A DNA stretch of 41,309 nucleotides from an uncultured Clostridia bacterium (GCA_944383295.1 CALWOW010000017.1:1-41309), one strand, 5' to 3'; shown: positions 16,949 through 34,279, counted from the first letter of the stretch. The notes: generated by a model from the letters alone, not told the origin. Translations and numbers: made by a program.

Positions 16949-18732
16949 ATGGAATTAACTATAGATAACAGAAAATTGGAAATAAACAAAAGAAATAATT
17001 TGAGATTGTCTTATAGGGACCTTATTTTTTGGCAAAATAATTCTATACATATTAACAACGAAAATGAAATTAAGACAAAATTAATTGCTTTTATTAATAG
17101 TGAACTATATAATTTATATAGTTATGCTAAACCAGAAAATTTTTTAGTTAACACAGCAAACAATCCTGATTTAGAGCGTTATTTTAATAGGCAACTGCAA
17201 GTATATAGGGCAAGGGGGTGAAGAGGCAAGTGCATCATATTTAGAACAAGATAGTCAAAATCAAAAAGCACAATTTGCTCAAACTCTTGGTGAAAAACAA
17301 TATCAAGAATATAAGCATTTGGTAAATTTTTTTTAAAGGAAGTAATTATCCTGCAAGCTTTCAGTGGCTTTTGTTAAACGAAACCTTAAAAAGTATATAC
17401 AGAACAGATTTTTCACAAGGTCAAGCAAAAGTTATTGTTAACGCAAGAAAACCACACCAGACCATTTTAGGAATGATGAATTTACTTACACAAGTTGTAG
17501 ATTTTATATATAACAATGCACCTAAATACGCAAGTTTCAAGGAATTATATAAAGATGCGCAAACGTATTTTAAAAGGTTTGTTACCCAAACTGAAATAAT
17601 TAATATTAAAAATATCGATACTTTTGGTAAAGGTAGTTGGATAAGATTTAACAGTCAGTATAATGACCCTAAAAATTTTGAACAAAATGTTGCAAATTTA
17701 AAATCACTTATTGCAGACACTCCTTGGTGCACTAGCACTTTGGCAAGTACTCATTTAAGTGAAGGCGATTTTTATGTGTTTATAGATAACAATAAAAAAC
17801 CCCATATAGCAGTTAAAATGAATGGGAATGCAATAGATGAAGTTCGTGGAATTAAAAATGGAAATAATCAAGAGTTAGAAAATGAATATCGTGATGTAGT
17901 AATTAATTTTTTAAAGAATAATTACAAAATCGAATACGGGAAAGAATGGTTAGACAAAGAAGAATGGAATGCTAGATTGATACAATATGCAAAAGATATT
18001 GATGAAAATAACTTTAAATTTGAAAATATTCCTTATTTATTTAATGATTTATTTAAAGTAGATTTCAAAAGTCACGGTGGAAACAGTAATTTAGCGCTAT
18101 TGAGAAGTAAATTAGTATACATAAAACCACAGTTAGCAGAATATTATAATTGTTTAGAAAATGAAATATGCGTAAGCGATTATGTTCCTAAAGACCAAGA
18201 AGTATGCCCTTATACCTTTATTATGGGGAATGCTAATTTGAAAAAATGTATCAATTTAGGCAACTTGCAAACAATCGGTGGAAATGCTGATTTTTGTGAT
18301 AGTAAAATAACAGATTTAGGTAATTTACAAACAATAGGTTTGAACGTTGATTTTCGTGATAGCAAAATAACCTCTTTAGGCAACTTGCAAACAATCGGTG
18401 GGGATGTTTATTTTATTAATAGTTAGATAACAGAATTAAAAAATTTAAAATTAATAGGTGGAAGTGCTATTTTTAGTGGTAGCGGAATAACCTCTTTAGG
18501 TAATTTAAAAACAATCGGTGGTGACGTTTTCTTTACCTATAGTCAAATAAACGATTTAGGTAATCTACAAACGATAGGCGGAGATGCATACTTTGATGCA
18601 AATACCATTAAAAAAGCAGATAATTTAAAGCACGTAGGAACAATTAATTTGTTGCAAAATGATAATGAAACGACCATAACATTAAAAGAATTTAAAAAAG
18701 ATATAGAAGCAAATAGGGACAATATATCTTAA
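16949..18732 (+). pseudogene. Broken gene: unknown N-terminal domain plus 20-residue LGNLQTIGG-type repeats
   Basis: Three collinear pieces read as one protein of about 590 residues if three lesions are ignored. Piece 1 (16949-17221) shifts by one base at a GGGGG run ending at 17218. Piece 2 (about 17217-17336) shifts again at a run of eight T near 17327-17334. Piece 3 runs in frame through 17371 (TTG) to an amber stop at 18424-18426 and continues in frame to TAA at 18730-18732. The middle region has WCTSTLASTHLSEGDFYVF and HIAVKMNG, a domain I cannot name. The end consists of LGNLxTIGGxxxF repeats, a solenoid-like array. TAG ends intact genes nearby, so recoding is unlikely. The simplest reading is an inactivated gene; homopolymer sequencing errors could explain the two shifts but not the amber. 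Confidence 0.75.
18256..18615 (+). repeat. Six 60-bp tandem repeats encoding a 20-residue solenoid motif
   Basis: Six consecutive 60-base units each encode a variant of LGNLQTIGGxxxFxxSxIxx. The nucleotide core TTAGGCAACTTGCAAACAATCGGTGG-like segment is well conserved in units 1 and 3, less so in the others. Unit 3 carries the amber codon at its 17th codon, where other units have Lys, Gly, Gln or Asn-like codons. Units 4-6 after the stop keep the frame. Confidence 0.85.
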
Positions 18733-18831: not shown

Positions 18832-20598
18832 TTATTGTATAGGTTTTTGCTTTTTCTTTTTATTATTCATTGATAGGCAAATCGCTATAATAATAGCGAG
18901 TATCAAAGAAATAATCATAAGGCAAATACCTATTATTTGGGTTGTTGTTAAATTACCATCGTTTAAAAAACTTTGTTTTACAAACCCTGTTTTTAATTCT
19001 CCATTACTCAAATATTCTATTTTGCTTATTCCATTTGTAGTTTCTAAAATAGTTACACTTGTATTTTTTGCTAAAGTTTCTTGTTCAATAGTCAATTCAT
19101 TATCCTGATATACAACAACTTCCGCTCTTGTACTTGCATTACTAACTAGTATATTGTCTATTGCAGTATCTAAAGTTACATCGATAACTGTACGTGTATC
19201 AATATAGCAAATGTAATCGATACCATTTTGATTATATTTTACTGCATAAAATTGAGTTCCATTTTTATCAATAGGTAAAGTAGGTGATGAAACTAATTGT
19301 AATGTAGTGCCATGGGTAACTTGTGCGGAATTAGGGAAATAAGTTTCGCTATCAATCTTTACGCTTGTAGGTAATACAAAAAGTTTTGCCTTTTCAACTA
19401 TAACCTTTGCATTCTCATAAGCAGGGGAAAAATTGCTCACTTGTTCACAATCACTTTTTAAAATATAACCCACAAGATATCCTTGTGTATTTTCTGCGCA
19501 ATTATCATAAACATAGTAAAACTTTGAGTCAGTATCATCTAATAAAATTAAGTTTTTACCTACATCATAAGATGCTATCCCTGTATTTAAACTTTTAAAA
19601 GAATATAAAGTTGTAGGTTTGTTCGTCATTAAAATTGTTACTACTTCACTTTTTGCTGTAATAGATTTTAATTCTATAGGGGGAGTTTGATTGTTATAAG
19701 CGGTTATAAAATTTGTAGTTTCATCTTGAATAGTTGTTTTATATAAATTGGTATCATCAAAAATATAGCAACTACCTTTTTCAAAATCTAAAGTAAAGCC
19801 GTTTGCAGTAATACCTAAATCTACACTTTCGCAACTATTTGTAGTGCACTTATATAGCTTGTTTTCTGACAATATATACAAGTTATTTAAGTTATCAACA
19901 GCTATGTCTTTTATGCTGTTAATTTCATTAGAGATTGTAAAATTAGATTTTGTTATTGTTTTAGTATTTATATCAATCATATAAATAGAGTTATCTATAC
20001 TAAAATAAATTGTTGTATTATCTTCGTTTACGTAAAAGCCACCACTACTAAAAGTTAAAGGAGATTTATCAAAATTAAGCTCACAAAAATATTCCAAAGA
20101 TTTAGTGTTTGTATCAGTATTTTCAACAACTGTAGCGACAAAATTTTCTGTTATAACATAAATTTCACCAGTAGCGCTACTGGTTATTTTTTTTATAGAA
20201 GGGAAAGATAATAGTTCGCCTTCTTTTAAATATTTGTCAATTTGTGTCGTTTCATTGGTGCTTAAATCTAAAATGTACAAAAAGTCATTTTGTTTTATAA
20301 AAGCAACTTGATCGCTGGTAGCACTAATTTCTGTAGGAATTCCTATTTGACTTTCATAAATAATGTTAGTGCTATTTCCAAGTTCAAAAATTTTGTTATT
20401 CGTTTTATCAGTAATATATATTTTGTTTTTAAAGTAAGTTGCATCGCCAATGCTAGAAAGGTGGGTGATACCATCTGTAACTTCTATAACAGAATTATTA
20501 ACTTCAAAAGAATTTGCTAATAGTATGTTTGCATTTACTCCACACATACAACAACAAAGACAAAAAATAAATGCAATTGACATCAACATCTTTTTCAT
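18832..20598 (-). CDS. Secreted, C-terminally membrane-anchored protein with beta-propeller-like and SH3-like regions
   Basis: About 588 residues. A signal peptide (MKKMLMSIAFIFCL onward, Cys-rich, ending near residue 28) is followed by about 350 residues of repeated short beta strands resembling a propeller (GEIYVITEN, TIYFSIDNSIYMID, LNNLYILSENKLYK). About 150 residues follow in which one or two bacterial-SH3-like segments can be seen (AEVVVYQDNELTIEQ, TGFVKQSFL). A transmembrane helix (IIGICLMIISLILAI) and a short Lys-rich tail end the protein. It is therefore an extracytoplasmic protein with a single C-terminal anchor. I prefer ATG at 20598 over TTG at 20604 because the GGGG ribosome site is then 10 bases away. 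It shares its design with the gene at 21532-22347. Function unknown; sensing or binding of cell-surface ligands is a guess. Confidence 0.78.
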   Translation of the reverse strand: MKKMLMSIAFIFCLCCCMCGVNANILLANSFEVNNSVIEVTDGITHLSSIGDATYFKNKIYITDKTNNKIFELGNSTNIIYESQIGIPTEISATSDQVAFIKQNDFLYILDLSTNETTQIDKYLKEGELLSFPSIKKITSSATGEIYVITENFVATVVENTDTNTKSLEYFCELNFDKSPLTFSSGGFYVNEDNTTIYFSIDNSIYMIDINTKTITKSNFTISNEINSIKDIAVDNLNNLYILSENKLYKCTTNSCESVDLGITANGFTLDFEKGSCYIFDDTNLYKTTIQDETTNFITAYNNQTPPIELKSITAKSEVVTILMTNKPTTLYSFKSLNTGIASYDVGKNLILLDDTDSKFYYVYDNCAENTQGYLVGYILKSDCEQVSNFSPAYENAKVIVEKAKLFVLPTSVKIDSETYFPNSAQVTHGTTLQLVSSPTLPIDKNGTQFYAVKYNQNGIDYICYIDTRTVIDVTLDTAIDNILVSNASTRAEVVVYQDNELTIEQETLAKNTSVTILETTNGISKIEYLSNGELKTGFVKQSFLNDGNLTTTQIIGICLMIISLILAIIIAICLSMNNKKKKQKPIQ

Positions 20599-20741
20599 AT
20601 GCAACTACCCCAATTTTTGAAAATGTATACTATATATCTTATTATAGCATATTTAAGAAAAAAGCAACAACAAAAAAATTGAAAAAATTTAATTATTTTA
20701 TAAAAGTGTACATTAGGTGTCAGTAATTTATAATTATAATA

Positions 20742-20830: not shown

Positions 20831-20860
20831 TTGACAAATCGAACATCTGTAATATATAGT
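20831..20860 (+). promoter_or_regulatory. Promoter of the HTH gene with a LexA-like half-site in the spacer
   Basis: A perfect TTGACA (20831-20836) is followed 18 bases later by TATAGT (or 16 bases later by TATATA). The spacer contains CGAACATCTGTAAT at 20840-20853, whose left half CGAACAT is a perfect LexA half-site and whose right half is poor (10 of 14 overall). A repressor bound here would block polymerase. Confidence 0.5.
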
Positions 20861-21477: not shown

Positions 21478-21510
21478 TATTGCATAGTATTATGCATAGT
21501 ATTAATTTTT
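21474..21510. terminator. A/T-rich palindromic hairpin with tandem 12-mers between convergent genes
   Basis: The 12-mer TGCATAGTATTA is repeated exactly in tandem (21481-21492 and 21493-21504). With the TTAATA at the HTH-gene stop codon it can fold into an imperfect hairpin (TTAATA.TGCATA / TATGCA..TATTAA) followed by TTTTTT. It probably ends transcription between the HTH gene and the convergent SH3 gene. The 14-mer AGTATTATGCATAG inside it recurs inverted at 32542-32555. Confidence 0.55.
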
Positions 21511-21531: not shown

Positions 21532-22347
21532 CTAAAAATCGAACTCATTTTTGTCATTTTTATCCGGTAAAGCTAATCGATTGAGACTAGTTATTTGACG
21601 ACTTGCTTCACGTTTCTTTTTGCGTTTTTCGGGTTTGAATACTAATAAAAGCAAAATTAAAGCTGGTATAGTCAAACCTAAAATTAGCAATATATTTGTA
21701 CTTGTTTGTAATTCAGGTGCAATTATAACACCTGCATTTGTAGATTGATTTGGTTCTGTCAAAACTTCTTCCACATTAGCAGAAAAAGGGGTAAGGTTTT
21801 GTGTGAGCGGAGCATATACGTATCCTGTAATGATTCCTTGTTCAAAACTTTTGTATCTACAAAAATACCATAAGTCTGACAAATCTGAATTTGCTTGTTC
21901 GCCATTAATTTGACCAAAATATTCTATATCAACAGCATTAAAAGGAATAGTGCCTAGATAGTCGCTAGTTGTGTTGGGCTCGCTCCTTATAACTAAATTT
22001 GCGATACCTTGAACACTAAAAGTACGGTTTGTTTCAAATGGGTGTTCTGGAGTTGAGTAAACTCGTTGCAAATTATCTATCAATACATAACCAGTAAATT
22101 CCTTATATGTTACATTTATCATTGTTTCGTCAAAAGTGCTGTTGTAAATTACAAAATATGTGTTGGGTAAAGTGAAGTAAACATTTGAATTTTCTTCACT
22201 TGCGACAGGGGTTTTGTATAATACTGTATTGTCCGAAATTACTCTATAATATATTGGTTCGCTTGCGCAAATTGGACTAAAATTACAAAAATATGCAAAA
22301 TTAAAAATGAATAAAAATGCAAGCATAATGAATAAAAATTTACGCAT
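21532..22347 (-). CDS. Secreted, C-terminally anchored double SH3-like protein
   Basis: 271 residues from the ATG ending at 22347, chosen over the ATG at 22374 because an AAGGAG site precedes it by 6 bases and the product then starts directly with a signal peptide (MRKFLFIMLAFLFIF...CAS). Two SH3-like modules follow: about 32-95 (YYRVISDNTVLYKTP, FTGYVLIDNL) and about 108-180 (ANLVIRSEPNTTSDYLG, TGYVYAPL). Then come a Thr/Asn-rich spacer, a transmembrane helix (ILLILGLTIPALILLLLVF) and a basic tail of about 40 residues. It has the same order of parts as the larger minus-strand protein ending at 20598. It is divergent from the terminase gene across about 120 bases, so the two may share regulation. 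Such modules often bind peptidoglycan. Confidence 0.8.
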   Translation of the reverse strand: MRKFLFIMLAFLFIFNFAYFCNFSPICASEPIYYRVISDNTVLYKTPVASEENSNVYFTLPNTYFVIYNSTFDETMINVTYKEFTGYVLIDNLQRVYSTPEHPFETNRTFSVQGIANLVIRSEPNTTSDYLGTIPFNAVDIEYFGQINGEQANSDLSDLWYFCRYKSFEQGIITGYVYAPLTQNLTPFSANVEEVLTEPNQSTNAGVIIAPELQTSTNILLILGLTIPALILLLLVFKPEKRKKKREASRQITSLNRLALPDKNDKNEFDF

Positions 22348-22471
22348 ACAACACTCCTTATATGATTTTAGCAAACAGTAATTGTTCTATTATATGCAAT
22401 TATTGTTTTTTTTACGATTTTTAAACCTAATAGTGCCGAAAAATAAAAATTTTGGTTGTTTTGGAGGATGA

Positions 22472-23926
22472 ATGGATTTAGATGAGTTAATAAAACAGGT
22501 AATAATCATTGATAAAGAGTTAGAACGTAGAAAAGAAAACGACCATTTATCTAATTACAATACAGGCAATAAAGTACATAAAAAGCAACTTTTATTCCAT
22601 AAGTCCAAGAAAAAGAATAGATGGGTTTTTGGTGGTAATCGTAGTGGTAAATCGCAGTGTGGAGCGGTTGAGGCGGTATGGTTGGCACGGGGCATACATC
22701 CCTACAAAGATAACAAAGCTTGTGATGGTTGGGTTGTTAGTTTGAGTCAGCAAGTGCAACGTGATGTTACGCAAAACAAAATTTTGTATTATCTCAATCC
22801 AGATTGGATTGAAAGTATAGTTATGTTGTCAGGGCGAAAAGATTCAGCAGAAAATGGGGTTATAGATTATATTTTAATAAAAAATGTTTTTGGCTCAACA
22901 AGTAAAATTGGTTTTAAAACATGCGACCAGGGGCGTGAAAAGTTTCAAGGTACGAGTCTTGATTGGGTTTGGTTTGATGAAGAGCCTCCTTTTGATATCT
23001 ATATGGAGTGTCGAATGAGAGTGCTTGATAGAGAGGGTATAATTTTTGGAACGATGACTCCACTAAAAGGACTTACTTGGGTGTATGACAAAATTTATTT
23101 GAATGAAGCGCAAGACGATGAAATATGGTGTATTGAAATGGAGTGGGCGGATAATCCTTTTTTATCAAAAAAAGAAATCGATTCTCTTACCAAAACTTTA
23201 AGCGCTGAGGAGTTGGAAAGCAGGAGATATGGGAAATTTAGTGCAAAGGGTGGTTTGGTGTATAGTGAATTTGACGTGGGTGTGCATGTAATAGAACCGT
23301 TTACTGTCCCGCATGATTGGTACGACAATATAAGTATTGACCCAGGACTGCATAATCCATTAAGTGCTCATTGGTACGCTGTCGATTATGACGGAAATAT
23401 TTATGTAATTGCGGAGCATTATGAAGCGGAAAAATCAATTGAATATCATTCAAAATGCATTCTAGAAAAATGCAAGCAATTAAATTGGCCGACAGGTTTT
23501 AATGGTAAAATAAACGCTTTGATTGATTCCGCCGCAAATCAAAAGACTCTTGCTTCCCCTAAAAGTGTGAGTGAGTTGTTTTATGATTATGGAATAAATG
23601 TAAATACGAATGTAAACAAAGATTTGTTTTCGGGAATTTCAAGAGTAAAAAGTTATTTAAAAAACGCAAAAAATGAAGCAAAATTGTTCATTTTTTCCAC
23701 TTGTGTCAATATGATACGTGAAATAAAGGGGTATTGGTGGGGTAATGCTGATGTGCCGATAAAGAAAGATGACCACGCAATGGATGATTTGAGATATTAC
23801 ATAATGTCAAGACCAGAGGCGCACGATGAAGAAAAACAAAAGCCAACTTTAGTGCAAATGCATAAAGAAAGGCTTATATCAAAAAATCGTCGTGAGCATT
23901 TCAATAGCAGGAGGTGGTTAAATTGA
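22472..23926 (+). CDS. Phage terminase large subunit
   Basis: 484 residues with the two TerL engines. The ATPase has Walker A GGNRSGKS (54-61), Walker B VWFDEE (166-171) and a coupling motif near TMTPLKG (194-200). The RNase-H-like nuclease has acidic positions in SIDPG (Asp290), LIDSAA (Asp352) and DDHAMDDLRY (Asp433-438). All catalytic residues are present, so packaging activity is plausible. TerL pumps DNA through the portal into preformed heads and cuts it. The ATG is preceded by TTGGAGG. It opens the cassette and lies divergent from the SH3-protein gene. Normally a small subunit gene precedes TerL; here a small-terminase-like gene follows it. Confidence 0.93.
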   Translation: MDLDELIKQVIIIDKELERRKENDHLSNYNTGNKVHKKQLLFHKSKKKNRWVFGGNRSGKSQCGAVEAVWLARGIHPYKDNKACDGWVVSLSQQVQRDVTQNKILYYLNPDWIESIVMLSGRKDSAENGVIDYILIKNVFGSTSKIGFKTCDQGREKFQGTSLDWVWFDEEPPFDIYMECRMRVLDREGIIFGTMTPLKGLTWVYDKIYLNEAQDDEIWCIEMEWADNPFLSKKEIDSLTKTLSAEELESRRYGKFSAKGGLVYSEFDVGVHVIEPFTVPHDWYDNISIDPGLHNPLSAHWYAVDYDGNIYVIAEHYEAEKSIEYHSKCILEKCKQLNWPTGFNGKINALIDSAANQKTLASPKSVSELFYDYGINVNTNVNKDLFSGISRVKSYLKNAKNEAKLFIFSTCVNMIREIKGYWWGNADVPIKKDDHAMDDLRYYIMSRPEAHDEEKQKPTLVQMHKERLISKNRREHFNSRRWLN

Positions 23927-24231
23927 AAACTGAAGAAGAATCAGAAAAGCTTGCAAAATCTTTATTAAAAAAAGCGATGGGCTATACGGTTGATGAAGTG
24001 GTTGAAGAATATGTCAATGAAGATAGTGATTTAAAATTGATAAAGAAAAAAGTTACTAAAAAACATATCCCTCCAGATATAAATGCTGCCCGTGCATTAT
24101 TAGAACGTTGTTATGATACTAATTTTAATAAATTGAAAGAGTTAAGTGATGAAGAATTAAAAAAAATGCGAAATGAAATTTTAAAAGAAATCAAAGAAGG
24201 TTATCAAAATGCAACTAACAGTATCAAATAG
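23923..24231 (+). CDS. Small protein resembling part of a terminase small subunit
   Basis: 102 residues starting at TTG 23923, which overlaps the TerL stop (TTGA). I chose it because AGGAGG lies 8 bases upstream, whereas the GTG at 23914 sits inside that ribosome site. The block GYTVDEVVEEYV followed by KVTKKHIPPDINAARALLER resembles the C-terminal oligomerisation part of several TerS families (pattern ...K.PPD..A...L). An N-terminal DNA-binding HTH is not present. It may be a reduced TerS or a TerL accessory factor. Translational coupling to TerL suggests the two proteins work together. Assignment is by pattern only. Confidence 0.6.
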   Translation: MKTEEESEKLAKSLLKKAMGYTVDEVVEEYVNEDSDLKLIKKKVTKKHIPPDINAARALLERCYDTNFNKLKELSDEELKKMRNEILKEIKEGYQNATNSIK

Positions 24232-24397
24232 AAAAGTAAAATGTGCGGGCAAAACTCAGTGTGCGAATAAAACATTTTATAAAATAAAATTTAGTAAGTA
24301 TTCAATAAATTTATGTGAAAAATGTGCACGAGAGTTGTATGAAAAATTAGGTAAAAATTTAGTACCTAAATCAGTTAAAAGTAAATTTAATTATTAA
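24209..24397 (+). CDS. Zinc-ribbon microprotein
   Basis: 62 residues, overlapping the previous gene by 23 bases. Four cysteines are spaced as CAGKTQC and CEKC, 22 residues apart, the classic layout of a small treble-clef/zinc ribbon. The rest is basic (Lys-rich at both ends). A GAAGGTT-like weak ribosome site precedes the ATG. Small zinc-ribbon proteins are frequent between terminase and portal genes of Bacillota phages, but their job is not established. Candidates are nucleic-acid binding during packaging or a structural zinc protein. The frame is short, but conserved Cys spacing and the operon position support it as real. Confidence 0.65.
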   Translation: MQLTVSNRKVKCAGKTQCANKTFYKIKFSKYSINLCEKCARELYEKLGKNLVPKSVKSKFNY

Positions 24398-24412
24398 AAA
24401 TGAGGTAAAAGT

Positions 24413-26326
24413 ATGCAAAATACACAAAAAAACGCATCAAAATCAAAAAATTTAATAGAAAAAGAGTTAATTAGTGAAATAAAAAAAGATTTCGAACGTA
24501 GGCAAGAAGAACGTAAGCCGTTTACTGCTCAATGGCAATTAAATATAAATTTTGTAATGGGGAATCAATATTGTGGCATAGGTGCAAATGATACACTAGA
24601 TGATTTTGACAAGCAATATTTTTGGCAAGAAAGAGAAGTTTACAATCATATTGCCCCATTAGTTGAAACTAGATTATCTAAACTAGCAAAAGTCCGCCCA
24701 ACTATGACAGTGCTTCCCGCAAGTGGAGATGAAGATGATGTTAGTAATGCCCATATTTGCAAAAATATACTTGAATCTGTATCTGCTAAATTAGATTTAA
24801 GTGAATTAGTTTCTCAAGCTACTCGTTGGAGTGAAATATGCGGTACAAGTTTTTATAAAATTGTATGGAATGATAGTGCGGGTTCTGTTGTTGGCTTAAC
24901 TACGTTAGGTGAAAAAATATACGAAGGCGATGTCGATGTAGTTGTTTGTTCACCGTTTGAGATATATCCAGACAGTAATTCTTGTGAATCATTGGATAAT
25001 TGCAAAAGTTTAATTCACGCTAGAGCATACCACGTTGACACAATAAAAAAACATTGGGGAGTTAGCGTGAAAGGTGAAGATATTGATACATACAATCTTT
25101 CGAACTCTCAAGTTGCTGGTGGTTTGGGATACGCTTCAAAATCAGCTAAAATGACAAAAACCGTAAAACACGACCACGCAATGGTTATTGAAAGATACGA
25201 AATGCCAACAAAAGAGTATCCAGAAGGGCGTTTGGTAATTATAGCTGGCGATAAATTACTTTATAATGATATTTTACCATACAAAAATTTGCAAAACGGA
25301 GAAAGAGGATTTCCCTTTATTCGACAAATTAGTATTGGGCAACCTTCTTTATTTTGGGGGACAAGTATAGTTGAGCGCTCTATTCCTGTTCAAAGGGCTT
25401 ATAATGCTGTAAAAAATAGAAAGCACGAATTTATTAACCGTTTATGTATGGGCGTTATGAGTGTCGAAGATGGTTCAGTTGATATCGAAAATCTCGAAGA
25501 AGAAGGATTAAGTCCTGGAAAGATTTTGGTTTATCGTCAAGGCGCACGTGCACCGCAAATAATGTCTAGTTCTAGTTTACCTGTAGATTTTAGAGATGAA
25601 GAAGACCGCTTATTAAATGAATTTTTAAATATAAGCGGAGTAAGTGACTTGTTTGGTACAAATGCAAGTGCTATTTCAAATATGAGTGGTGTTGCTTTAC
25701 AAATTTTATTAGAGCAAGAAGATATGCGTATTTCTTCAAGTGGTGAATACGTAAAATTTGCTATAAAAGAAATTGGAAGACAAATTTTGCGTATGTACAA
25801 GCAATTTGTAACAAGTCAACGTATGAATAAATTAGTTGGAGAAAACGGAACAAGTAAATTGTTTTACTGGGACAATGATACTATAACTTCTGATGATGTC
25901 GTTTTTGAAACCGAAACTGAAATGGGAGAAACGGTTGCTCAAAAACGTAGTATGATTTTCGATTTATTACAAGCTGGACTTTTGCATGACGAAAACGGAA
26001 AACTTTCTAATGCTATGCGTTTAAAAATTTTGGAGCTATTGGGTTTTGGAATATGGGAAGATGCACTTGATAATAATAACTTGCAATTAGAAAAAGCAAA
26101 ACGAGAAAATATTGACTTTATTGAAAATAAAATTCCAGAGGTGTTGGAAATTCACGACCATGATTTACATATCAATGCGCATACCGCATTTATGTTAAGT
26201 GGAGAATTTGACAGATTGAGCAAAGAAAAACCTGAAATAAGAGAGAAAATGTTACAACATATAAGAACACATAAACAGTATAAAAAACTTACTACTTTAG
26301 CAGAAAATAATACATCTATTCAATAG
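24413..26326 (+). CDS. P22-type phage portal protein
   Basis: 637 residues, in the range of P22-like portals (about 600-725). Family-like features are the N-terminal QWQLNINFVMGNQYCG, the VYNHIAPLVETRLSKLAKVRP block (about 75-100), a clip/stem region around NLQNGERGFPFIRQIS and FWGTSIVERSIPVQRAYNAVKN, and the helix with ISNMSGVALQILLEQEDMRI. The dodecameric portal is the vertex through which TerL packages DNA and to which head-completion proteins attach. The frame is intact. Together with the gp4- and gp10-like genes below, it marks the cassette as podovirus-like rather than siphovirus-like. Confidence 0.85.
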   Translation: MQNTQKNASKSKNLIEKELISEIKKDFERRQEERKPFTAQWQLNINFVMGNQYCGIGANDTLDDFDKQYFWQEREVYNHIAPLVETRLSKLAKVRPTMTVLPASGDEDDVSNAHICKNILESVSAKLDLSELVSQATRWSEICGTSFYKIVWNDSAGSVVGLTTLGEKIYEGDVDVVVCSPFEIYPDSNSCESLDNCKSLIHARAYHVDTIKKHWGVSVKGEDIDTYNLSNSQVAGGLGYASKSAKMTKTVKHDHAMVIERYEMPTKEYPEGRLVIIAGDKLLYNDILPYKNLQNGERGFPFIRQISIGQPSLFWGTSIVERSIPVQRAYNAVKNRKHEFINRLCMGVMSVEDGSVDIENLEEEGLSPGKILVYRQGARAPQIMSSSSLPVDFRDEEDRLLNEFLNISGVSDLFGTNASAISNMSGVALQILLEQEDMRISSSGEYVKFAIKEIGRQILRMYKQFVTSQRMNKLVGENGTSKLFYWDNDTITSDDVVFETETEMGETVAQKRSMIFDLLQAGLLHDENGKLSNAMRLKILELLGFGIWEDALDNNNLQLEKAKRENIDFIENKIPEVLEIHDHDLHINAHTAFMLSGEFDRLSKEKPEIREKMLQHIRTHKQYKKLTTLAENNTSIQ

Positions 26327-26337
26327 GAGTGAAAAAT

Positions 26338-27174
26338 ATGGAAAATGAACTACCTTTCAAATTGCCAGAATTTAAAGTAGATGAATTAAAACAAGATAAT
26401 ACAAATTTAGGTACTTTTAAGTCTGTAAAAAGTTTAAAAGATGCCTATGATAGTTTGCGAAGTTGTTTTACAAAAAATGCTATGGAATTAGCAGAAATCA
26501 AGAAAAATATGCAACAAAACAATGAAAACATAGATAAAAAGGAAGAAGTATTCGCAAAAACCGATACTAATGTGTCTAAAATCGACCAAAATGACCAAAA
26601 TCAAGCAAAAAACAGTGATTTAAATGATTTTAGACAAGAGATTTTGCAATCTAATGAACTAGATATCATTCAAAAAACTAAAAAAGGTGAAGATATTTTG
26701 TCAGACAAGGTTGATATAACCCCTGATAAAACCATTTTGGACAAGGCGGAAAGCCCCCAAGAAGTGAAACCAAATGTCGATGTTTGGGAAAATGCAGATT
26801 GGAATAGTAAAGTTGAACGTTTTTTTGAGTTATATCCTGATGCAAAAGTGTATTCAAAAGAATTGGCGCAAATTTTGGTCAATGACAAGACTGTACGAAA
26901 AAGTGAAAGTCCCTTGACTAATGCGTGGATTAAAATTTTGCAAAATAATAAACATGAAATTAAACTTGATAACGAATTTATATCAAAAAATGTATTAAAT
27001 AATCCTAAAATTTACAATTTGGTAGTAAATGATTATTTAAGTAAACTAAAAACTAACAAATCTGCTCCGTCAGTTATTGCTAATGCGGAAGGTGCTAGGG
27101 TTAGCGCAGAAGTGCATAGAACCGTAGCAAATATGGCAGAAGCAAAAGAGCTGGCAAAAAAATTTTTTAAATAG
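26338..27174 (+). CDS. Probable capsid scaffolding protein
   Basis: 278 residues from the ATG at 26338 (AGGAG site 7 bases upstream; an in-frame GTG at 26329 is too close to it). The protein is hydrophilic, very rich in Lys, Asp, Asn and Glu, without hydrophobic core or Cys, and predicted mostly helical or disordered, with a segment WNSKVERFFELYPDAKVY in the middle and a basic C-terminal helix (AEVHRTVANMAEAKELAKKFF). Its place between portal and major capsid genes, its composition and its size fit a scaffold, which shapes the procapsid and then leaves; P22 gp8 is similar in size and also has a basic C-terminus that binds coat. No protease gene is adjacent, as in P22. Confidence 0.65.
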   Translation: MENELPFKLPEFKVDELKQDNTNLGTFKSVKSLKDAYDSLRSCFTKNAMELAEIKKNMQQNNENIDKKEEVFAKTDTNVSKIDQNDQNQAKNSDLNDFRQEILQSNELDIIQKTKKGEDILSDKVDITPDKTILDKAESPQEVKPNVDVWENADWNSKVERFFELYPDAKVYSKELAQILVNDKTVRKSESPLTNAWIKILQNNKHEIKLDNEFISKNVLNNPKIYNLVVNDYLSKLKTNKSAPSVIANAEGARVSAEVHRTVANMAEAKELAKKFFK

Positions 27175-27183
27175 GAGATAAAA

Positions 27184-28362
27184 ATGATTACATTACAAAA
27201 TGCGCAAAACGCTTTAAAAACAGTGTATTTAGAAGCATTAAGCAATCAATTGAATACGCAAGTTGACCCTGTGTTTAATATGGTCAAACAAAGCTCAACT
27301 GATGTTTACGGTCGAAATATTATTAAACTTGTTCCTTATGGTATTAATGGTGGAATTGGCGCAGGTGACGAAGATGGTGCTTTACCGACAAGTCAAAATA
27401 GTAAATATCTTAATTTTACTACATCTTTGAAAAATTTGTATGGAACTATCGAAATAACAGACAAGGCAATTCGTGCTTCAGAAAATGATGAAGGTGCTTT
27501 TGTTAATTTATTGACTGCAGAAATGGATGGACTTTTGCAGTCGAGCAAATTTAATTTGAGTCGTATGTTTTATGGTGACGGAACTGGAATACTCGCTAAA
27601 ACTATTACGGCAATTGATTCATCGGGTAAAAATATGACAGTTAATAATGCTACGGCGTTTGCTGAAGGTATGTTGCTTGATTTTTACATGAGCGATGTTC
27701 TTGATGCAGATATGACAGGCGTTGAAGTTATAAAGATTGATAGAGCAAATAAAAAAATTTATTTAAGCAAGGTTTCCGCTAGTTTTACAACAACAAATAT
27801 TTCTAAATATACCGTATGCGTTCAAGGGAGTAAAGATAGAGAATTGACAGGACTTGGCGCAATTTTTGGTACAAGTGCTACACTTTATGGGGTATCAAGG
27901 GCTGATTATCCGTTTTTGATGCCTTACACTTTATCAAAAACTTCTGCGGAAACATTTGACGAAATGTTTATTCAAAAAATGATTGACAGGGTGGAAGCTC
28001 GTTCAAATTATCAGCCAAATGTGATACTTTGTGGCGGCGATGTCATTTATGATGTTATGACAACTTTAGCTGGTTATGCAAAAAATTTGGATAGCACTAA
28101 TTTAGTTGGCGGATTTACAAGTGTTCTATTTTGTGGAATACCTGTTTTAAGAAATAGATTTGAAACAGAAAACAATATGATGTTATTGAATACCGACCAG
28201 TTTACTTTACATCAATTATGTGACTGGGAATGGTTGACTCACAATGGTGGTTCAATTTTGAAACAAAAAGAAGGTTATGCTTCATATAGTGCCACTTTAG
28301 TGAAGTATGCAGATTTGATTTGTAATAGACCAAATGCGCAAGCATTAATTACTAATTTATAA
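27184..28362 (+). CDS. Major capsid protein A (HK97-fold, P22-coat-like position)
   Basis: 392 residues. The segment GINGGIGAGDEDGALPTS, then LKNLYGTIEITDKAIRAS and SSKFNLSRMFYGDGTG, are characteristic of a Bacillota-phage major capsid family. The C-terminal part LHQLCDWEWL and ATLVKYADLICNRPNA is likewise typical. It should assemble as hexamers and pentamers around the portal. The start has GGAGA 6 bases upstream. It is immediately followed by a paralogue of almost equal length, so the shell may contain two coat types. It is too similar to phage coat in context (terminase, portal, scaffold) to be an encapsulin. Confidence 0.85.
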   Translation: MITLQNAQNALKTVYLEALSNQLNTQVDPVFNMVKQSSTDVYGRNIIKLVPYGINGGIGAGDEDGALPTSQNSKYLNFTTSLKNLYGTIEITDKAIRASENDEGAFVNLLTAEMDGLLQSSKFNLSRMFYGDGTGILAKTITAIDSSGKNMTVNNATAFAEGMLLDFYMSDVLDADMTGVEVIKIDRANKKIYLSKVSASFTTTNISKYTVCVQGSKDRELTGLGAIFGTSATLYGVSRADYPFLMPYTLSKTSAETFDEMFIQKMIDRVEARSNYQPNVILCGGDVIYDVMTTLAGYAKNLDSTNLVGGFTSVLFCGIPVLRNRFETENNMMLLNTDQFTLHQLCDWEWLTHNGGSILKQKEGYASYSATLVKYADLICNRPNAQALITNL

Positions 28363-28375
28363 GGAGGTAAAATAA

Positions 28376-29551
28376 ATGATTTCTTTATCAACAGCAGATA
28401 ATGCTTTAAAAAATGTTTATCTTGATGTTTTAACTGATCAATTAAACAACAGTTTAGACCCATTTTTTGCTAAAATTGGCAATACAACGCAAAATATATC
28501 AGGAAATGAAGTCAAAAAGATGATTCCGCTTGGCATCAACGGCGGTATAGGTGCAGGTACAGAAGTTGGTGCTTTGCCTACAGCAAAAGAAAATAGTTAT
28601 GCTACCATAACATCAAAACTAAAAAATTTGTATGGAACTATTGAAATTTCTGATAAAGCAATACGAGCAAGTAGAGATGAAGCTGGAGCTTTTTTAAATT
28701 TGTTAAATGCAGAAATGGAAAACTTGATTGAGTCAAGTAAGTTTAATTTTAGACGAATGTTGTACGGAGATGGTAGGGCTTTGGTGGGAACTATTGCATC
28801 GGTTGGAAGTACACCTAATGAATGTTCTGTTGTAAGCCCTGTGCATATGGCTGTGGGAATGCGTGTAGATATTTACGATGATCTTAATGAACCTATTGAA
28901 GAATTAAAAGATGTTGAAATTGTAGGTATTGATTATGTAAATGAAATTATTAAATTAAGTAAAGAAGTTCCAGAAGACTATCAATTATGTGCGCAACTTT
29001 TTGTATATTTAAAAAATTCAAAAGATAAGGAATTTATTGGGCTAAAAGGTTTGTGTGACCCTGCAATAACAAATTTATACGGAATAGACAGAACTGTTGT
29101 TTCGTATATGACAGGTGGAGCAGAAACAATTCAAAGTGCACAACTTACTTTACCTAAAGTAATGAAATATATTGACGATGTAAGGTTAAATTATGATGGA
29201 AACATTGACTTTATTACCTGCGGTTTTGGTTTTCGTAGAGATTTGCAAAGCAAACTAAAAGCAATGACGTATAATGTAGATATTCAAAACTTGCAAGGTG
29301 GTTTTAAATCAATTAGTTTTAATGGTATTCCAATAGTTGCGACTCGTTTTTGTGAGGACAAAACCGCATATTTCCTTGATTCTTCTGTGTTCCATTTGCA
29401 TCAATTATGTGATTGGACATGGTTATCTAATAATAAAGGCGAGGTGCTTCATCAACGAGAAGGATATGCTACGCATTGCGCAACTTTAGTTAAATATTGC
29501 GATTTGATTTGTGATAGACCAAATAGAGTAATGCAAGTAAGTCTTTCTTAA
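28376..29551 (+). CDS. Major capsid protein B (tandem paralogue)
   Basis: 391 residues, homologous to the preceding gene along its whole length; identical or near-identical blocks include GINGGIGAG, LKNLYGTIEI, DKAIRAS, LHQLCDW and ATLVKY. By eye somewhat under half of the positions agree, and the middle (about 140-250, the surface-exposed insertion region in such coats) is the most divergent. So this is an old duplication with both copies kept intact, not a recent copy. An AAGGAGG site precedes the ATG, stronger than that of copy A. It could form pentamers, a decoration layer or an alternative shell. Confidence 0.85.
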   Translation: MISLSTADNALKNVYLDVLTDQLNNSLDPFFAKIGNTTQNISGNEVKKMIPLGINGGIGAGTEVGALPTAKENSYATITSKLKNLYGTIEISDKAIRASRDEAGAFLNLLNAEMENLIESSKFNFRRMLYGDGRALVGTIASVGSTPNECSVVSPVHMAVGMRVDIYDDLNEPIEELKDVEIVGIDYVNEIIKLSKEVPEDYQLCAQLFVYLKNSKDKEFIGLKGLCDPAITNLYGIDRTVVSYMTGGAETIQSAQLTLPKVMKYIDDVRLNYDGNIDFITCGFGFRRDLQSKLKAMTYNVDIQNLQGGFKSISFNGIPIVATRFCEDKTAYFLDSSVFHLHQLCDWTWLSNNKGEVLHQREGYATHCATLVKYCDLICDRPNRVMQVSLS

Positions 29552-29564
29552 TAGGAGAAAAATA

Positions 29565-29945
29565 ATGGCATTAATTAAAATTGAAACCGATGCTTTTAAT
29601 ATATGTGAAAGAATAAAAAAAATCGATAAAAATTACTTTGTAGTATATAATACAACCAAAAATCAATATGAAATACATAATACTATGCAAAAATCTAATA
29701 CATTTTGCATAGTTTGTGACAAAGGTCTAAATTGTCAGGTTATAGATAAGTTGAGAAAAACAAAAATAGAAAATATGCAAAAAGTAATCAGCGAAATTGA
29801 AAAAAATAACGAATATTTAGAAAAAGAACAAAAACGTAAATTGATGGATAATGCTACATGGAAAGCTAGGGAAATGTTTAATTATGCTAAAGGCAAAATA
29901 GATAATTGCGACTTTAAAAATAGTTACTCTACAAAATGGGTTTAA
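29565..29945 (+). CDS. Small unknown protein of the capsid cassette
   Basis: 126 residues. The N-terminal third (RIKKIDKNYFVVYNTTKNQYEIHN) has the look of a short beta-sheet domain. The centre is a helical, charged stretch (ENMQKVISEIEKNNEYLEKEQKRK), followed by NATWKAREMFNYAKG. Proteins of this size and pattern (ERIKxIDxxYxVxYNxxxxxYEV) occur directly after coat genes in several Bacillota phage cassettes, but I know of no proven function; head decoration or completion are candidates. GGAG precedes the ATG. Cotranscribed with the coat genes, 13 bases downstream of copy B. Confidence 0.7.
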   Translation: MALIKIETDAFNICERIKKIDKNYFVVYNTTKNQYEIHNTMQKSNTFCIVCDKGLNCQVIDKLRKTKIENMQKVISEIEKNNEYLEKEQKRKLMDNATWKAREMFNYAKGKIDNCDFKNSYSTKWV

Positions 29946-29956
29946 AAGGAGGAACT

Positions 29957-30526
29957 ATGACAGTAAAAGAAGTTTTAAATTTAGTTGCAGAATATATTGG
30001 TGAGACAGATTTGAAAAATTGCACAGAATTGGGTGGAGAAACTGTTGCTACAGAACAACAATTAGAAAAACTCAATTTATTGCTGTCTTGCGTTAATGAT
30101 GTGTCGCAAAGTTTGGCGATGATGTATTTTCCTTTAAAATTTGAAGAAAAAATATCAAACAAGACAGGTAAAATATTGTTTAGCACACTCAAACAACCCT
30201 TGCTAGAAATATTAAAAATTGTTGATGAACATGGATATGATACTGAATTTGCTATTTTTCCTACTTATCTAGAAGCTAAAAATGGTGATTTAACTATCGT
30301 TTATACATATTTACCTAAATATTTAAGTGGTTTTGATAACGTTTTAGAAATTCAAGAAGGTAAAGTATCAAAAAGATTGTTTGCTTTAGGCGTTGTGAGT
30401 AGATATTTCTTATTAACCGGTATGTATAGTGATGCGGAGGCTTGGGAGAATATGTTTGAGCGAGCTGTTTTGGTTGCTAATCGCCCGAAAATTGCGAAAA
30501 CAATCAAAAAAAGGCGGTGGCTATAA
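29957..30526 (+). CDS. Head-completion/connector protein (P22 gp4-like position)
   Basis: 189 residues from the ATG at 29957, chosen for the AAGGAGG site 6 bases upstream (the open frame extends to 29936 without one). The protein is mostly helical, with a central beta part (FEEKISNKTGKILFSTL) and a C-terminal helix pair FALGVVSRYFLLTGMYSDAEAWENMFERAV, a pattern shared by head-tail adaptor proteins (YxLxxGxxxEAxxWxxxYxxAL). In P22 the corresponding gp4 ring seals the portal and carries gp10. Its stop overlaps the next start (TAATG), consistent with assembly of the two products on one another. Family assignment is tentative. Confidence 0.65.
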   Translation: MTVKEVLNLVAEYIGETDLKNCTELGGETVATEQQLEKLNLLLSCVNDVSQSLAMMYFPLKFEEKISNKTGKILFSTLKQPLLEILKIVDEHGYDTEFAIFPTYLEAKNGDLTIVYTYLPKYLSGFDNVLEIQEGKVSKRLFALGVVSRYFLLTGMYSDAEAWENMFERAVLVANRPKIAKTIKKRRWL

Positions 30527-32007
30527 TGATTTATAGCGAAAACTTACCTAATGTCAACAAATCTACATTAAGGGTTAAATTAAGTGATTTTTCAAAAGGA
30601 ATAAATACTAAGATTAGTGAAAATATTTTACCGTTAAATTATGCTGTAAATTCGTTTAATTTTAGTTACAATTCCGGTGCTCTAAAAGAAGGATTGGGGC
30701 TAAAAGAACTTGAAATTCCTGTCAATAACTACACAAAAACCATGATAACACCAACAGGAGTTAATCAAATTTTAAATTTTTGGCATTATAGGAGATATGA
30801 TAAGTTAAATAATGATTTTTCACCCTTGATGATGATTTATTGTGATGACGGTAAATTATACTGTGGAAGATTGGATACTGATGATGATATATTTAGAGAT
30901 ACTGGATTATCATTTGATACTGAACCGGTTGGGTTAAACTATCGGTTAAATGGAGTAGATAGTTTTTTATGTTGTGTACCTAATGGTATTGGAGTTTATA
31001 GTAATTCTGTTTGTAAAATTTATACCGACAACGTACCTTCGATAACTTCTGCAGCACTTCATGCGGGTAGATTGTTTGCTACAACGGGCGGAGACCAAAG
31101 TCAACTATGGTTTAGTGATGACCTTGATCCAACAAATTGGGATGTTAATGCTTTTGATGGTGGGTATATTGAATTGACTGATGAGCGTGGGACATTAAAA
31201 AAAGTAATTGAATCTAATAATTATTTGTACGTTATACGTGAATATGGAATTTCTAGAGTATCAGGTTGGGGGCTACAAAGTGATTTTAGTGTTAAAAATC
31301 TATACTTAACTACTGGCAAATTGTATTACGATAGTGCGGTATTATGTGGAAAAATAATCATAATGTTATGTCGTGATGGTATTTATTACTTTGATGGTAG
31401 CGATATGACAAAGCTTCAGTTGGGGCTTGATAAATATTTTGAAAATGTCGATAATGAATACGCTGTTGGCGCTTTTCTAGATGGTAAGTATTATTTAGCT
31501 TGTAGGCTAAATTATAATGATAATAGAATAGTCGGTTGCGAGAATACTGCATTTAAAAATAATACATTAATTGAATATGATTTGAATACCGCAGAAATAA
31601 ATATTTTGCGTGGTGTAGATATTTGTAGTTTAACTGCATTTCAAACTGAAACTTTTAGCAAACTTATTGCGTGTTGTAATGGTGAAAACGGTGTAATTTT
31701 GAGTGAATTAACACACGATGGATTGATTTATGGTACACCTACTGAAAAAATTTGGGATTCACCATTTACAGATATGGGGTATCCAACATACAAAAAAGTG
31801 TTAAAAGCTTTGGTGATAAATTCTACCACTGATATAACTTTGGAAGTGAAAACAAACAACAAAGCTTACTCTTTTAAAGCTAAAGGCGATATTAAACCTA
31901 TTCGAATACCTATAAATATAATTACTGAAAAATTTAGTATAACATTAAAAACCAATGCTGAAAAATGTGAAATATCCAATCCTTTACTTGAGGTTGAACT
32001 TTGTTAA
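30526..32007 (+). CDS. Beta-propeller tail-nozzle protein (P22 gp10-like)
   Basis: 493 residues from ATG 30526, which overlaps the previous stop; GTG 30517 is the other possibility. The protein is almost entirely beta with recurring strands such as GRLFATTGGDQSQLWFSDD, NYLYVIREYGISRVSG, DGIYYFDGSDM and GKYYLACRLNYNDN, as in the six-bladed propeller of P22 gp10 (472 residues), which extends the portal channel and stabilises packaged DNA. Its position directly after the gp4-like gene supports this. It lacks any tail-fibre repeat or enzyme domain. Best reading: the nozzle of a short-tailed particle. Confidence 0.72.
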   Translation: MIYSENLPNVNKSTLRVKLSDFSKGINTKISENILPLNYAVNSFNFSYNSGALKEGLGLKELEIPVNNYTKTMITPTGVNQILNFWHYRRYDKLNNDFSPLMMIYCDDGKLYCGRLDTDDDIFRDTGLSFDTEPVGLNYRLNGVDSFLCCVPNGIGVYSNSVCKIYTDNVPSITSAALHAGRLFATTGGDQSQLWFSDDLDPTNWDVNAFDGGYIELTDERGTLKKVIESNNYLYVIREYGISRVSGWGLQSDFSVKNLYLTTGKLYYDSAVLCGKIIIMLCRDGIYYFDGSDMTKLQLGLDKYFENVDNEYAVGAFLDGKYYLACRLNYNDNRIVGCENTAFKNNTLIEYDLNTAEINILRGVDICSLTAFQTETFSKLIACCNGENGVILSELTHDGLIYGTPTEKIWDSPFTDMGYPTYKKVLKALVINSTTDITLEVKTNNKAYSFKAKGDIKPIRIPINIITEKFSITLKTNAEKCEISNPLLEVELC

Positions 32008-32019
32008 GTGGGGTGGAAT

Positions 32020-32508
32020 ATGGATAATTATGTTAAAAAAAGTTATCAGCTTGCGACAGAGTTGGAAGATAGAGTGGATTTATTACTCGAAAGAATACAG
32101 GCTTTGGAAAACAAAAACAATGATAACGCAAGCAATACATATGAAGTTAAAATCCAAAGGTTTAACTATGCACCTATATCCAAAGATAGTGCGGGTATGT
32201 CGTTTGTGATTTTGGGACAATTAGATTTTAATCCAAACGAGGTAGTTAATAGTTTTGTTTTTATGGATATAACTACTGAAAGTTTAGCAAATGTCACTTG
32301 TATATTTACGCTAGATAATAATTATGTAAGTACTGATTATGGTGGTATAAGCGGGAAACGAACATTATGCATACCTTGTTCTTTTACTAATTCAAAAGGG
32401 ACGGTTGAGTTGGCTGCTATTATGAGCTGTCCTGAAGATGTCCATATCGAAGCAGATAATATTGTTTTGCTTTTGATAGGCAACAACCTTAATTTTGTTA
32501 AGCGATAG
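32020..32508 (+). CDS. Small protein with short coiled coil and beta-rich domain; candidate fibre or needle
   Basis: 162 residues from ATG 32020 (GGGGTGG site just upstream). Residues about 8-35 form an amphipathic helix likely to be a coiled coil (ATELEDRVDLLLERIQALE). The remaining 125 residues are beta-rich (VKIQRFNYAPISKDSAG, FVILGQLDFNPNEVVNSFVFMDI, VTCIFTLDNNY). Such an arrangement, trimeric coil plus beta head, is common in tail needles, spikes and small receptor-binding proteins, and the slot after gp10 is where P22 has its needle gene. No recognised carbohydrate-binding motif. The gene ends inside a palindrome-rich element (32507-32556). Confidence 0.65.
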   Translation: MDNYVKKSYQLATELEDRVDLLLERIQALENKNNDNASNTYEVKIQRFNYAPISKDSAGMSFVILGQLDFNPNEVVNSFVFMDITTESLANVTCIFTLDNNYVSTDYGGISGKRTLCIPCSFTNSKGTVELAAIMSCPEDVHIEADNIVLLLIGNNLNFVKR

Positions 32509-32556
32509 GTATTATGCATTGCATAATATTATGCATAATACCTATGCATAATACTG
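32507..32556. repeat. Palindromic ATGCATAATAC repeat cluster inside the cassette
   Basis: AGGTATTATGCAT (32507-32519) and ATGCATAATACCT (32531-32543) are perfect inverted repeats of 13 bases, with a further palindrome TGCATAATATTATGCA between and across them. ATGCATAATAC is then repeated directly at 32544-32554. No T-run follows, so it is not a standard terminator. CTATGCATAATACT (32542-32555) is the exact reverse complement of 21486-21499. Confidence 0.75.
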
Positions 32557-32671
32557 TAAAAACCTAGTAAAAACAAGGGGTAACAAATGAAATATCAAAG
32601 TAAACTGTTAATTCAATCTTTGATTAAAACAATAAATTTTAAATTATATTTTTATAACGGAGGTGGAAATT

Positions 32672-33586
32672 ATGTCAACAAAAAATTTGCAAGAAGAAAA
32701 AGAAAATGAAAAAATCGAAGTTGAAGGTACTGCATCAAATTTGCCACTCAATGCAAGTGTTGATGCAAATACAATTAAAGACAAATTAAATCAAATTGAA
32801 AATAGTTATGCTAGTCAATATCCTGTTTTTGATGAAAATACAATTTTTGAAGATTTGCCTTATCAAGAAATCAAAACACCTAGTAGTGATGAAATAAAAG
32901 ATATTGCAGAAGAAGAGCTAAAGCCATACAAAGATGTAAATATTGCAGAAATTGAGCAGGATTATAAAAGCGATTTGGACACTTTAAATTTAAAAGAGCA
33001 AACTGTTAAAAGTGATTTGGAAAATACAAAACAAGATTTGGCTAATGATTTACAAACAGGACTAGCTACAAGTCAGGCAAACAGTATTAGAAATGGGGTT
33101 CAAAATTCAAGCATTGCTACAAATGAAAAGAATGCTGTACAAAATAAAATTGATAGTGAATTACAAACTGCACTTAATAAAGCTAATACCGATTTAGCTG
33201 AAATTGCTCTTAAGCGAAGCATTTCTGAAAATGAATTTCAAATTGCGCTAGAAAAATTTGATATATCTTACGCTAGCAAGTTGGAGCAAAAAATAAATGA
33301 CTTGAATTCTTTATATGCAAAAAAACAGGCGGAAGCGGAAGAGTATAATAAAAAAATTGCAGAACAACGTAAGCAACTTTTGGAAAATTGGCGCATAAAT
33401 AGGGAAATTATTACTTCCAAACTTGACGCTGAAAAAGGTCAAGAAAAAGCATTTTATGTTATAGAGCAATTGAAAGGCTTGTCAAAAAATGACGCTATGG
33501 AACTTTTGCGTGATACCGATATTATAAAAGCTTTGGGTAATTGGTATTCTCCTGTTGTAGATTATGTACAAAGAATTTTAAAATAG
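32672..33586 (+). CDS. Coiled-coil protein of the cassette; candidate internal or ejection protein
   Basis: 304 residues from ATG 32672, preceded by GGAGGTGG (the ORF's earlier ATG at 32663 overlaps that site). Residues 1-75 are acidic and low in structure. About 85-235 are long charged helices with heptad character (DTLNLKEQTVKSDLENTKQDL, ELQTALNKANTDLAEIALKR, KKQAEAEEYNKKIAEQRKQLLENW). The centre has RNGVQNSSIATNEKNAV. The C-terminus (GLSKNDAMELLRDTDIIKALGNWYSPVVDYVQRIL) looks like a small folded helical domain. No membrane segment. Position after the tail nozzle genes and composition resemble internal virion/ejection proteins, but homology is not established. A 154-base gap with the palindrome cluster separates it from the previous gene. 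Confidence 0.6.
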   Translation: MSTKNLQEEKENEKIEVEGTASNLPLNASVDANTIKDKLNQIENSYASQYPVFDENTIFEDLPYQEIKTPSSDEIKDIAEEELKPYKDVNIAEIEQDYKSDLDTLNLKEQTVKSDLENTKQDLANDLQTGLATSQANSIRNGVQNSSIATNEKNAVQNKIDSELQTALNKANTDLAEIALKRSISENEFQIALEKFDISYASKLEQKINDLNSLYAKKQAEAEEYNKKIAEQRKQLLENWRINREIITSKLDAEKGQEKAFYVIEQLKGLSKNDAMELLRDTDIIKALGNWYSPVVDYVQRILK

Positions 33587-33597
33587 GGGGTGTTTAA

Positions 33598-34023
33598 ATG
33601 AGTTCGGCGTTAAAAAATCGACTCAAAAATTACAGCTTCTGGGTTTCTTTAGCGAGTGCTATTTTACTGCTTGTGCAAGCGATAGGAAAACCACTTGGCC
33701 TTGTTATTAACGAGGAAATTTATATGTCTATAGTTAATAGTGTACTCGGTGTTTTTGTTGTTCTGGGTATCATTTCTCATCCAGCGCAAAATTTAATTAG
33801 TAGTAGCTCTAGTGCGAACGTGGATACTGTAAATGAAAAAGAAACAGAAGTAAGCGATTCTTTAAAGAGTGTTGAAATAAATAATGACAATAAAAGCAAT
33901 AGCGCAAATTGTGAGAATGTTGTTAATGTTGTTGAGAATAATGATGTAAAATCGTTAGCTCAAATTAAACAACAGATTTTAAATGATTGCGCACAAAAAG
34001 ACAATGTTTCAAATTTAAAATAA
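33598..34023 (+). CDS. Holin-like small membrane protein with long polar tail
   Basis: 141 residues. The first 65 match small phage holins of the phi-LC3/holin_1 kind: NRLKNYSFWVSLASAILLLVQAIG (helix 1), a short turn, then IVNSVLGVFVVLGIISHP (helix 2). The remaining 75 residues are Ser/Asn/Val-rich and charged, an unusually long tail for this family (typical total about 80-90). Holins form membrane lesions that free endolysin, yet no endolysin (amidase, lysozyme, peptidase) is encoded in the cassette or next to it. It is the last gene; GGGGG precedes the ATG and a strong terminator follows its stop. Confidence 0.78.
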   Translation: MSSALKNRLKNYSFWVSLASAILLLVQAIGKPLGLVINEEIYMSIVNSVLGVFVVLGIISHPAQNLISSSSSANVDTVNEKETEVSDSLKSVEINNDNKSNSANCENVVNVVENNDVKSLAQIKQQILNDCAQKDNVSNLK

Positions 34024-34025
34024 TA

Positions 34026-34054
34026 AAAGGAGGGGGAATGCCCCTCTTTTTTAT
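34026..34054 (+). terminator. Strong terminator ending the capsid cassette
   Basis: GAGGGG and CCCCTC pair in a GC-rich stem, extended by AAAA/TTTT across one bulged G, with a following TTTTTTATT. This is the most GC-rich hairpin in the window, directly after the holin stop. Confidence 0.85.
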
Positions 34055-34279
34055 TATGGTCGTAAAATCGTATAAAAAAGCTTTATTAGTTAATTACTTT
34101 ATTAATTGATTAATCGTGTAATAAATCATTTATTTTCTATTTTAAAAAGAATTTAACTCTTAAAGTATCAAAAAGTAGAGTATATATTCCTTATATTAAA
34201 TAGTATAGTTTTTTCAAAAATTTGGTTGATATTTATATGCTGTAAGTATCGTGTTTGACTAATTTATTTTACTAAATAC

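Follow-up and report, generated by a model that had tools for sequence, protein, structure and literature searches.

The window analyzed here is a stretch of 41,309 nucleotides from an uncultured Clostridia bacterium (GCA_944383295.1, CALWOW010000017.1:1-41309), contig C17 of a draft genome of 1.05 Mb that is 97% complete, and it carries a compact cassette of phage-type packaging and capsid genes. ORF calling on the window recovered 13 intact plus-strand open reading frames (ORFs) at 22472-34023, all of them open, as a first-pass annotation of this DNA had described; protein families were assigned by Pfam and PHROG profile searches of the window proteins (Table 1). That annotation had read the block as a P22-like capsid set maintained by the host without the rest of a phage. 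The block itself stands, although the conserved unit reaches further upstream, to about 20890; in relatives, an ArpU-like regulator and an opposite-strand membrane protein accompany the cassette. The likeness to P22 held for the portal but not for the coat, which matched no Pfam coat model, that of the P22 family included, and falls in a PHROG of its own (phrog_14242). The coat was also corrected in number, there being two tandem coat genes.

The absences noted in the first pass were largely borne out. Among the window proteins scanned, none matched an integrase, repressor, replication or endolysin family, and no tape-measure family rose above noise in the PHROG and Pfam searches, the largest ORF of the tail region having 496 amino acids (aa); the lack of a tape-measure protein therefore points to a short tail. 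A repeat search revealed no convincing direct repeats of attachment-site (att) type bracketing the cassette, the window contains no tRNA, and GC content does not shift between the cassette and its flanks. Host genes lie on both sides, as had been claimed, with type II topoisomerase genes and SSB on the left and RNase J on the right, and the strong terminator predicted after the holin was recovered as a hairpin with a T tail. The draft genome encodes a single TerL of this family and no further coat of this family.

Table 1. Genes and features of the cassette and its upstream part (positions in the window).
Feature	Position	Strand	Basis
ArpU/RinA-like late-operon regulator, 195 aa	20890..21477	+	phrog_36 transcriptional regulator 1.1e-7; directly upstream in relatives, order-wide loci
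w21532, 280 aa, predicted secreted, C-terminally membrane-anchored	21532..22374	-	between ArpU and TerL; position kept across order (alignment)
TerL, large terminase, 484 aa	22472..23926	+	phrog_2 5.6e-30; PF03237
TerS-like protein, 105 aa	23914..24231	+	phrog_309 terminase small subunit 1.4e-6; conserved position
Small Cys-rich (zinc-ribbon-like) protein, 62 aa	24209..24397	+	conserved between TerS and portal; no family match
Portal protein, 637 aa, P22 family	24413..26326	+	PF16510 P22_portal 2e-20; phrog_156 4.8e-34
Scaffold-like protein, 281 aa	26329..27174	+	between portal and coat; conserved family; putative name, as no curated family matches
Major coat protein A, 392 aa	27184..28362	+	phrog_14242 2.5e-44
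Coat protein B, 391 aa, tandem paralogue	28376..29551	+	phrog_14242 1.1e-30
g126, small virion-region protein	29565..29945	+	conserved across order
g196, candidate head-completion/adaptor (gp4-like)	29936..30526	+	putative name from position and conservation; no profile match
g496, candidate gp10-like tail hub/nozzle	30517..32007	+	phrog_3287 virion structural protein 1.8e-9; alignment; gp10 role putative
g166, fast-evolving tip protein, candidate tail-needle knob or lectin	32008..32508	+	AlphaFold2 and Foldseek
DUF7934 protein, 307 aa, long helical hairpin; candidate ejection, needle or internal protein	32663..33586	+	PF25588 2e-17
Holin	33598..34023	+	PF04531 4.6e-9; phrog_297 4.5e-13
Intrinsic terminator closing the operon	34032..34055	+	hairpin stem 34032-34045 and T-rich tail

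We examined the distribution of the coat gene in related genomes. The coat was present in 33 of 34 genomes of the same family, the lone exception being 75% complete, and in 8 of 9 genomes of the genus, including all six that are at least 90% complete. Across the order it was detected in 173 of 297 sampled genomes and 64 of 126 genera, as a single match in 165 of the 173, and at least 582 places in named genomes carry a confirmed coat. These named relatives are metagenome-assembled genomes labelled uncultured Christensenella sp., Candidatus Onthoplasma, Candidatus Protoclostridium or Clostridia bacterium, many with gut or rumen labels. Based on these names, on the placement of Onthoplasma within Christensenellales in the NCBI taxonomy, and on the identity between the coat of an uncultured Christensenella sp. 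locus (L165) and that of a genome of the same genus (G004), we infer that the order is Christensenellales. Outside the order, the coat was rare in the class sample; it occurred in all five genomes of one small family (f76) and in 3 of 38 genomes of another (f48), the latter a patchiness as expected of prophages. Two IMG/VR "viral contigs" (L022 and L025) resembled chromosomal copies of the cassette, L025 having host-type metabolic genes upstream of TerL (racemase/enolase-like and SDR-like, judged by eye), which suggests that chromosomal loci of this sort are filed in viral databases as "viral contigs".

The check for the same locus in related genomes, proposed in the first pass, drew on the region from about fifty genomes and on eighty named contigs. 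It revealed the cassette in syntenic form, often at the same place, in almost all relatives within the family and in a large part of the order. The recurrent order, found with gaps in many families, was ArpU (plus strand), w21532 (minus strand), TerL, TerS, small Cys protein, portal, scaffold, coat, g126, g196, g496, a variable gene, DUF7934, a BhlA holin and the holin; the BhlA-type holin (PF10960), directly upstream of the holin in many relatives, was not found in the window. RNase J is the right neighbor in ten genomes and deacetylase and SSB genes are the left neighbors in others, including G076 of family f15, in both cases as in the window, while two loci (L179 and L185) have window-type neighbors on both sides. 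The chromosomal place is common to different genera and even families. TerL is on another contig in G018 and about 20 kb away in G024, single and intact in both, and in family f76 (G434 and G383) it is likewise on another contig. In loci of three related genera (L114, L116 and L117), a gene for a surface-protein-like product of 745-1126 aa (GLUG/InlB type) is inserted between TerL and TerS. The large ORFs that separate TerL from TerS in G020 and G027, with a related one in G034, look like host insertions encoding GLUG/InlB-type surface proteins, and a tail-spike reading of them was rejected.

To compare the descent of the cassette with that of its hosts, a tree of five cassette genes was set against a tree of topoisomerase IV subunit B, the host marker, in 32 genomes. 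Thirteen of 29 splits were identical, in comparison to at most 4 after label shuffling, and the correlations between cassette and host distances ranged from r = 0.37 to 0.84 (Mantel P <= 0.001 for all five genes). Statistical analysis of 12 genes (Nei-Gojobori, own script, pairs with dS < 1.5) indicated median dN/dS values from 0.08 for the portal to 0.39 for ArpU, well under 1 for every gene tested and approximate because dS is near 1 in most pairs, in agreement with the earlier suggestion that selection keeps these frames open. TerL had been credited with all its catalytic acids; its Walker A K60, Walker B D169/E170 and nuclease residues D290, D352, D434 and D438 were kept in 30-33 of 33 relatives. 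Both the ATPase and the nuclease residues being retained, selection appears to act on packaging itself. Descent of the cassette across the genera and families of Christensenellales has been largely vertical, under purifying selection. The pattern named in the first pass as contradicting its reading, namely absence from close relatives, an integrase, att sites and dN/dS near 1, was sought in the 41-kb contig and the close relatives and was not found.

Coat A and coat B are about 41-44% identical, and coat B evolves faster. Coat B derives from a single old duplication and is kept in a subclade of the family. Bacteriophage T4, with gp23 and gp24, provides a precedent for a separate vertex coat protein, and by this likeness coat B may be a vertex protein. 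The coat profile gave no real match among PDB sequences. Although the first-pass annotation reported no spike, g166 weakens this claim, as the AlphaFold2 model (mean pLDDT 72, pTM 0.62; modest confidence) has an N-terminal coiled coil and a TNF-like knob, for which Foldseek returned the Sf6 needle knob (3rwn, 3.5e-4), the HS1 knob (4k6b) and TNF-like lectins. With only 18-26% identity inside the genus, g166 diverges strongly, as expected of a recognition tip, and is a candidate specificity determinant; judging from the model, the cassette may therefore include a tip protein. The DUF7934 model (AlphaFold2, pLDDT 88.8) forms a long hairpin of helices 75-143 and 150-270, and a fold search of the PDB returned generic coiled coils only, with no informative match. 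For g496, no match was present in any of 50,697 phage records.

Upstream of the packaging genes, the best promoter-like site of the region (20831-20860) lies just 5' of the ArpU-like gene, the promoter count there being no higher than chance. The protein w21532 is predicted from its sequence to have a signal peptide, an anchor and SH3-like character; it had no Pfam match and no convincing relative among PDB sequences. Further left, a 590-aa exported-looking protein without a Pfam family (18832-20604, minus strand) is often found left of ArpU in relatives and may belong to the conserved unit. At 17371-18614 lies an ORF with 60-bp tandem repeats encoding LRR-like NLQTIGG units, which continue beyond the stop at 18426 and suggest that this gene is frameshifted or decaying. 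A short palindromic repeat, TTGCATARTATTATGCATARTA, occurs in or beside the cassette at 21479-21501 and 32518-32540; with 12 genomic copies at <=3 mismatches against 0 for a reversed control pattern, it is a dispersed miniature repeat.

Based on distribution, synteny, tree and dN/dS, the view that the locus encodes a domesticated particle maintained by the host is well supported by sequence comparison, with respect to vertically inherited genes for a DNA-packaging particle. The likely explanation, in our view, is an operon for a podovirus-type particle that the host has domesticated and that resembles a gene transfer agent (GTA). As in GTAs, structural and packaging genes reside in the chromosome without integration or replication genes, are inherited vertically and are under purifying selection. 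A phage-type, ArpU-like regulator is linked to the cassette and conserved with it. In such a system, the regulator would be switched on in a subset of cells, and TerS and TerL would package stretches of the host chromosome via the P22-type portal into small capsids built of coat A, to which coat B would add a second subunit, possibly at the vertices. A very short tail, tipped by a needle or lectin, would be assembled from the products of g196, g496, g166 and the DUF7934 gene. Lysis of the cell would be brought about by the holin, probably with the help of host wall hydrolases, and the particles would deliver their DNA to sibling cells. For the fuller version, in which a podovirus-type GTA older than the Christensenellales families is near-core in these mostly uncultured gut bacteria and one clade has a two-coat capsid with coat B specialized, as a vertex subunit, the arguments seem to us evenly balanced.

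Several observations weigh against a GTA. The particle, its packaged DNA and the transfer are so far predictions from genes. About 40% of the sampled genomes of the order gave no coat match, and one family member that is 100% complete (G062, family f1) gave neither a coat nor a TerL match. Coat and host distances are only weakly correlated (r = 0.37), and therefore some exchange or rate change has occurred; the approximate nature of the dN/dS values counts here as well. The family scans matched no endolysin in the operon. A second operon for lysis or tail functions was likewise not identified, the genome not having been scanned as a whole for one. The genome G062 appears to be a clean loss and could be used as a natural comparison.

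The main rival is a PBSX-like killer particle, in which host-kept capsids that package DNA burst the producing cell, bind to competitors and harm them, with no useful delivery of DNA. Distribution, tree and dN/dS fit this equally, the divergence of g166 inside the genus is as for a specificity determinant, and the study on FpGTA, the GTA of Faecalibacterium, leaves the same question open (PMC12946183). Nevertheless, TerL, portal and capsid are under selection and would be expected to be lost in a killer, although PBSX keeps them. To our knowledge, no short-tailed particles without a long or contractile tail are known as bacteriocins, and we regard this explanation as rather unlikely. A capsid kept for a purpose other than DNA, such as an encapsulin-like compartment or a carrier of protein cargo, might suit small genomes that keep the cassette (genomes are near 1 Mb in the family of the window), and coat B, w21532 and the DUF7934 protein have no assigned roles; however, the portal and the active-site residues of TerL would not be expected to stay conserved, which makes it a very remote prospect.

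Phage-based explanations were also weighed. Elsewhere in the class, this coat family has a patchy occurrence, apparently within prophages, and Microbacterium phage Shocker is a complete phage with the order TerL-small-small-portal-scaffold-coat, as might be expected if a successful ordinary prophage lineage, or a fresh defective prophage as the first pass had allowed, were repeatedly re-acquired. Against this, the cassette is near-core, mostly single copy and at the same chromosomal place, with a host-congruent tree, purifying selection and neither an integrase nor att repeats detected; prophage and decay were rejected on distribution, synteny, tree, dN/dS and att repeats as largely contradicted, and we consider them highly improbable. 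Satellites of the phage-inducible chromosomal island (PICI) or P4 type keep integrases and regulators and are without most capsid genes. The window has no replication or integration genes, as for a satellite whose helper supplies the missing functions, another alternative raised earlier, but a kept capsid set with no integrase matched in the region is the opposite of satellite anatomy. Given vertical inheritance and the lack of another TerL of this kind in the genome, the satellite explanation is contradicted and is the least probable of all.

Comparison with known systems places the GTA-like operon closest to FpGTA (Borodovich et al. 2026, PMC12946183), the first podovirus-like GTA to be reported and the sole published one found in the literature searched, which contained no other description of such a cassette. 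FpGTA is likewise a podovirus-like operon of about 10 kb from gut Clostridia, with TerS, TerL, portal, scaffold and major capsid protein and no replication genes, and its tail fibre, holin and endolysin genes are in a second operon (PMC12946183). The cassette, compared to FpGTA by its published description, differs in having one or more holins in the main operon, an attached ArpU-like regulator and a tandem coat duplication in one clade, and in having been traced across an order with common synteny and host-congruent trees. With RcGTA and other alphaproteobacterial GTAs, it shares vertical descent with the host, purifying selection, structural genes that are not accompanied by genes for integration or replication, and genes sometimes spread over several loci, here TerL in G018 and G024. 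RcGTA has a siphovirus-like tail and the host regulators CtrA and GafA, in contrast to the P22-type portal, missing tape measure and phage-type late regulator of the cassette. PBSX of Bacillus subtilis is a chromosomal, phage-derived particle of a Gram-positive bacterium that packages host DNA, as proposed for the cassette; it has a long tail, kills rather than transfers and has another gene set (see also the discussion in PMC12946183). The closest named phages, Arthrobacter phages Jasmine and Brad and Microbacterium phage Shocker, with 24-27% identity in the coat and 23-25% in the portal, are complete phage genomes of 45-47 kb, that of Shocker with replication genes.

Few GTAs have been described, and most of these are from Alphaproteobacteria. 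With the cassette, the genes of a GTA-like particle can be named across an order of mostly uncultured gut Clostridia. GTA-like packaging has also been reported in Christensenellaceae HGM11616/QANA01, for which the accessible text names no operon or genes (PMC12946183), and the cassette provides candidate genes for it; the question becomes testable with existing virome long-read data. The conservation across the order suggests that a tamed, short-tailed virus particle serves purposes of these bacteria themselves, and on the evidence of its genes the purpose of the particle would most likely be the packaging and sharing of pieces of host DNA.

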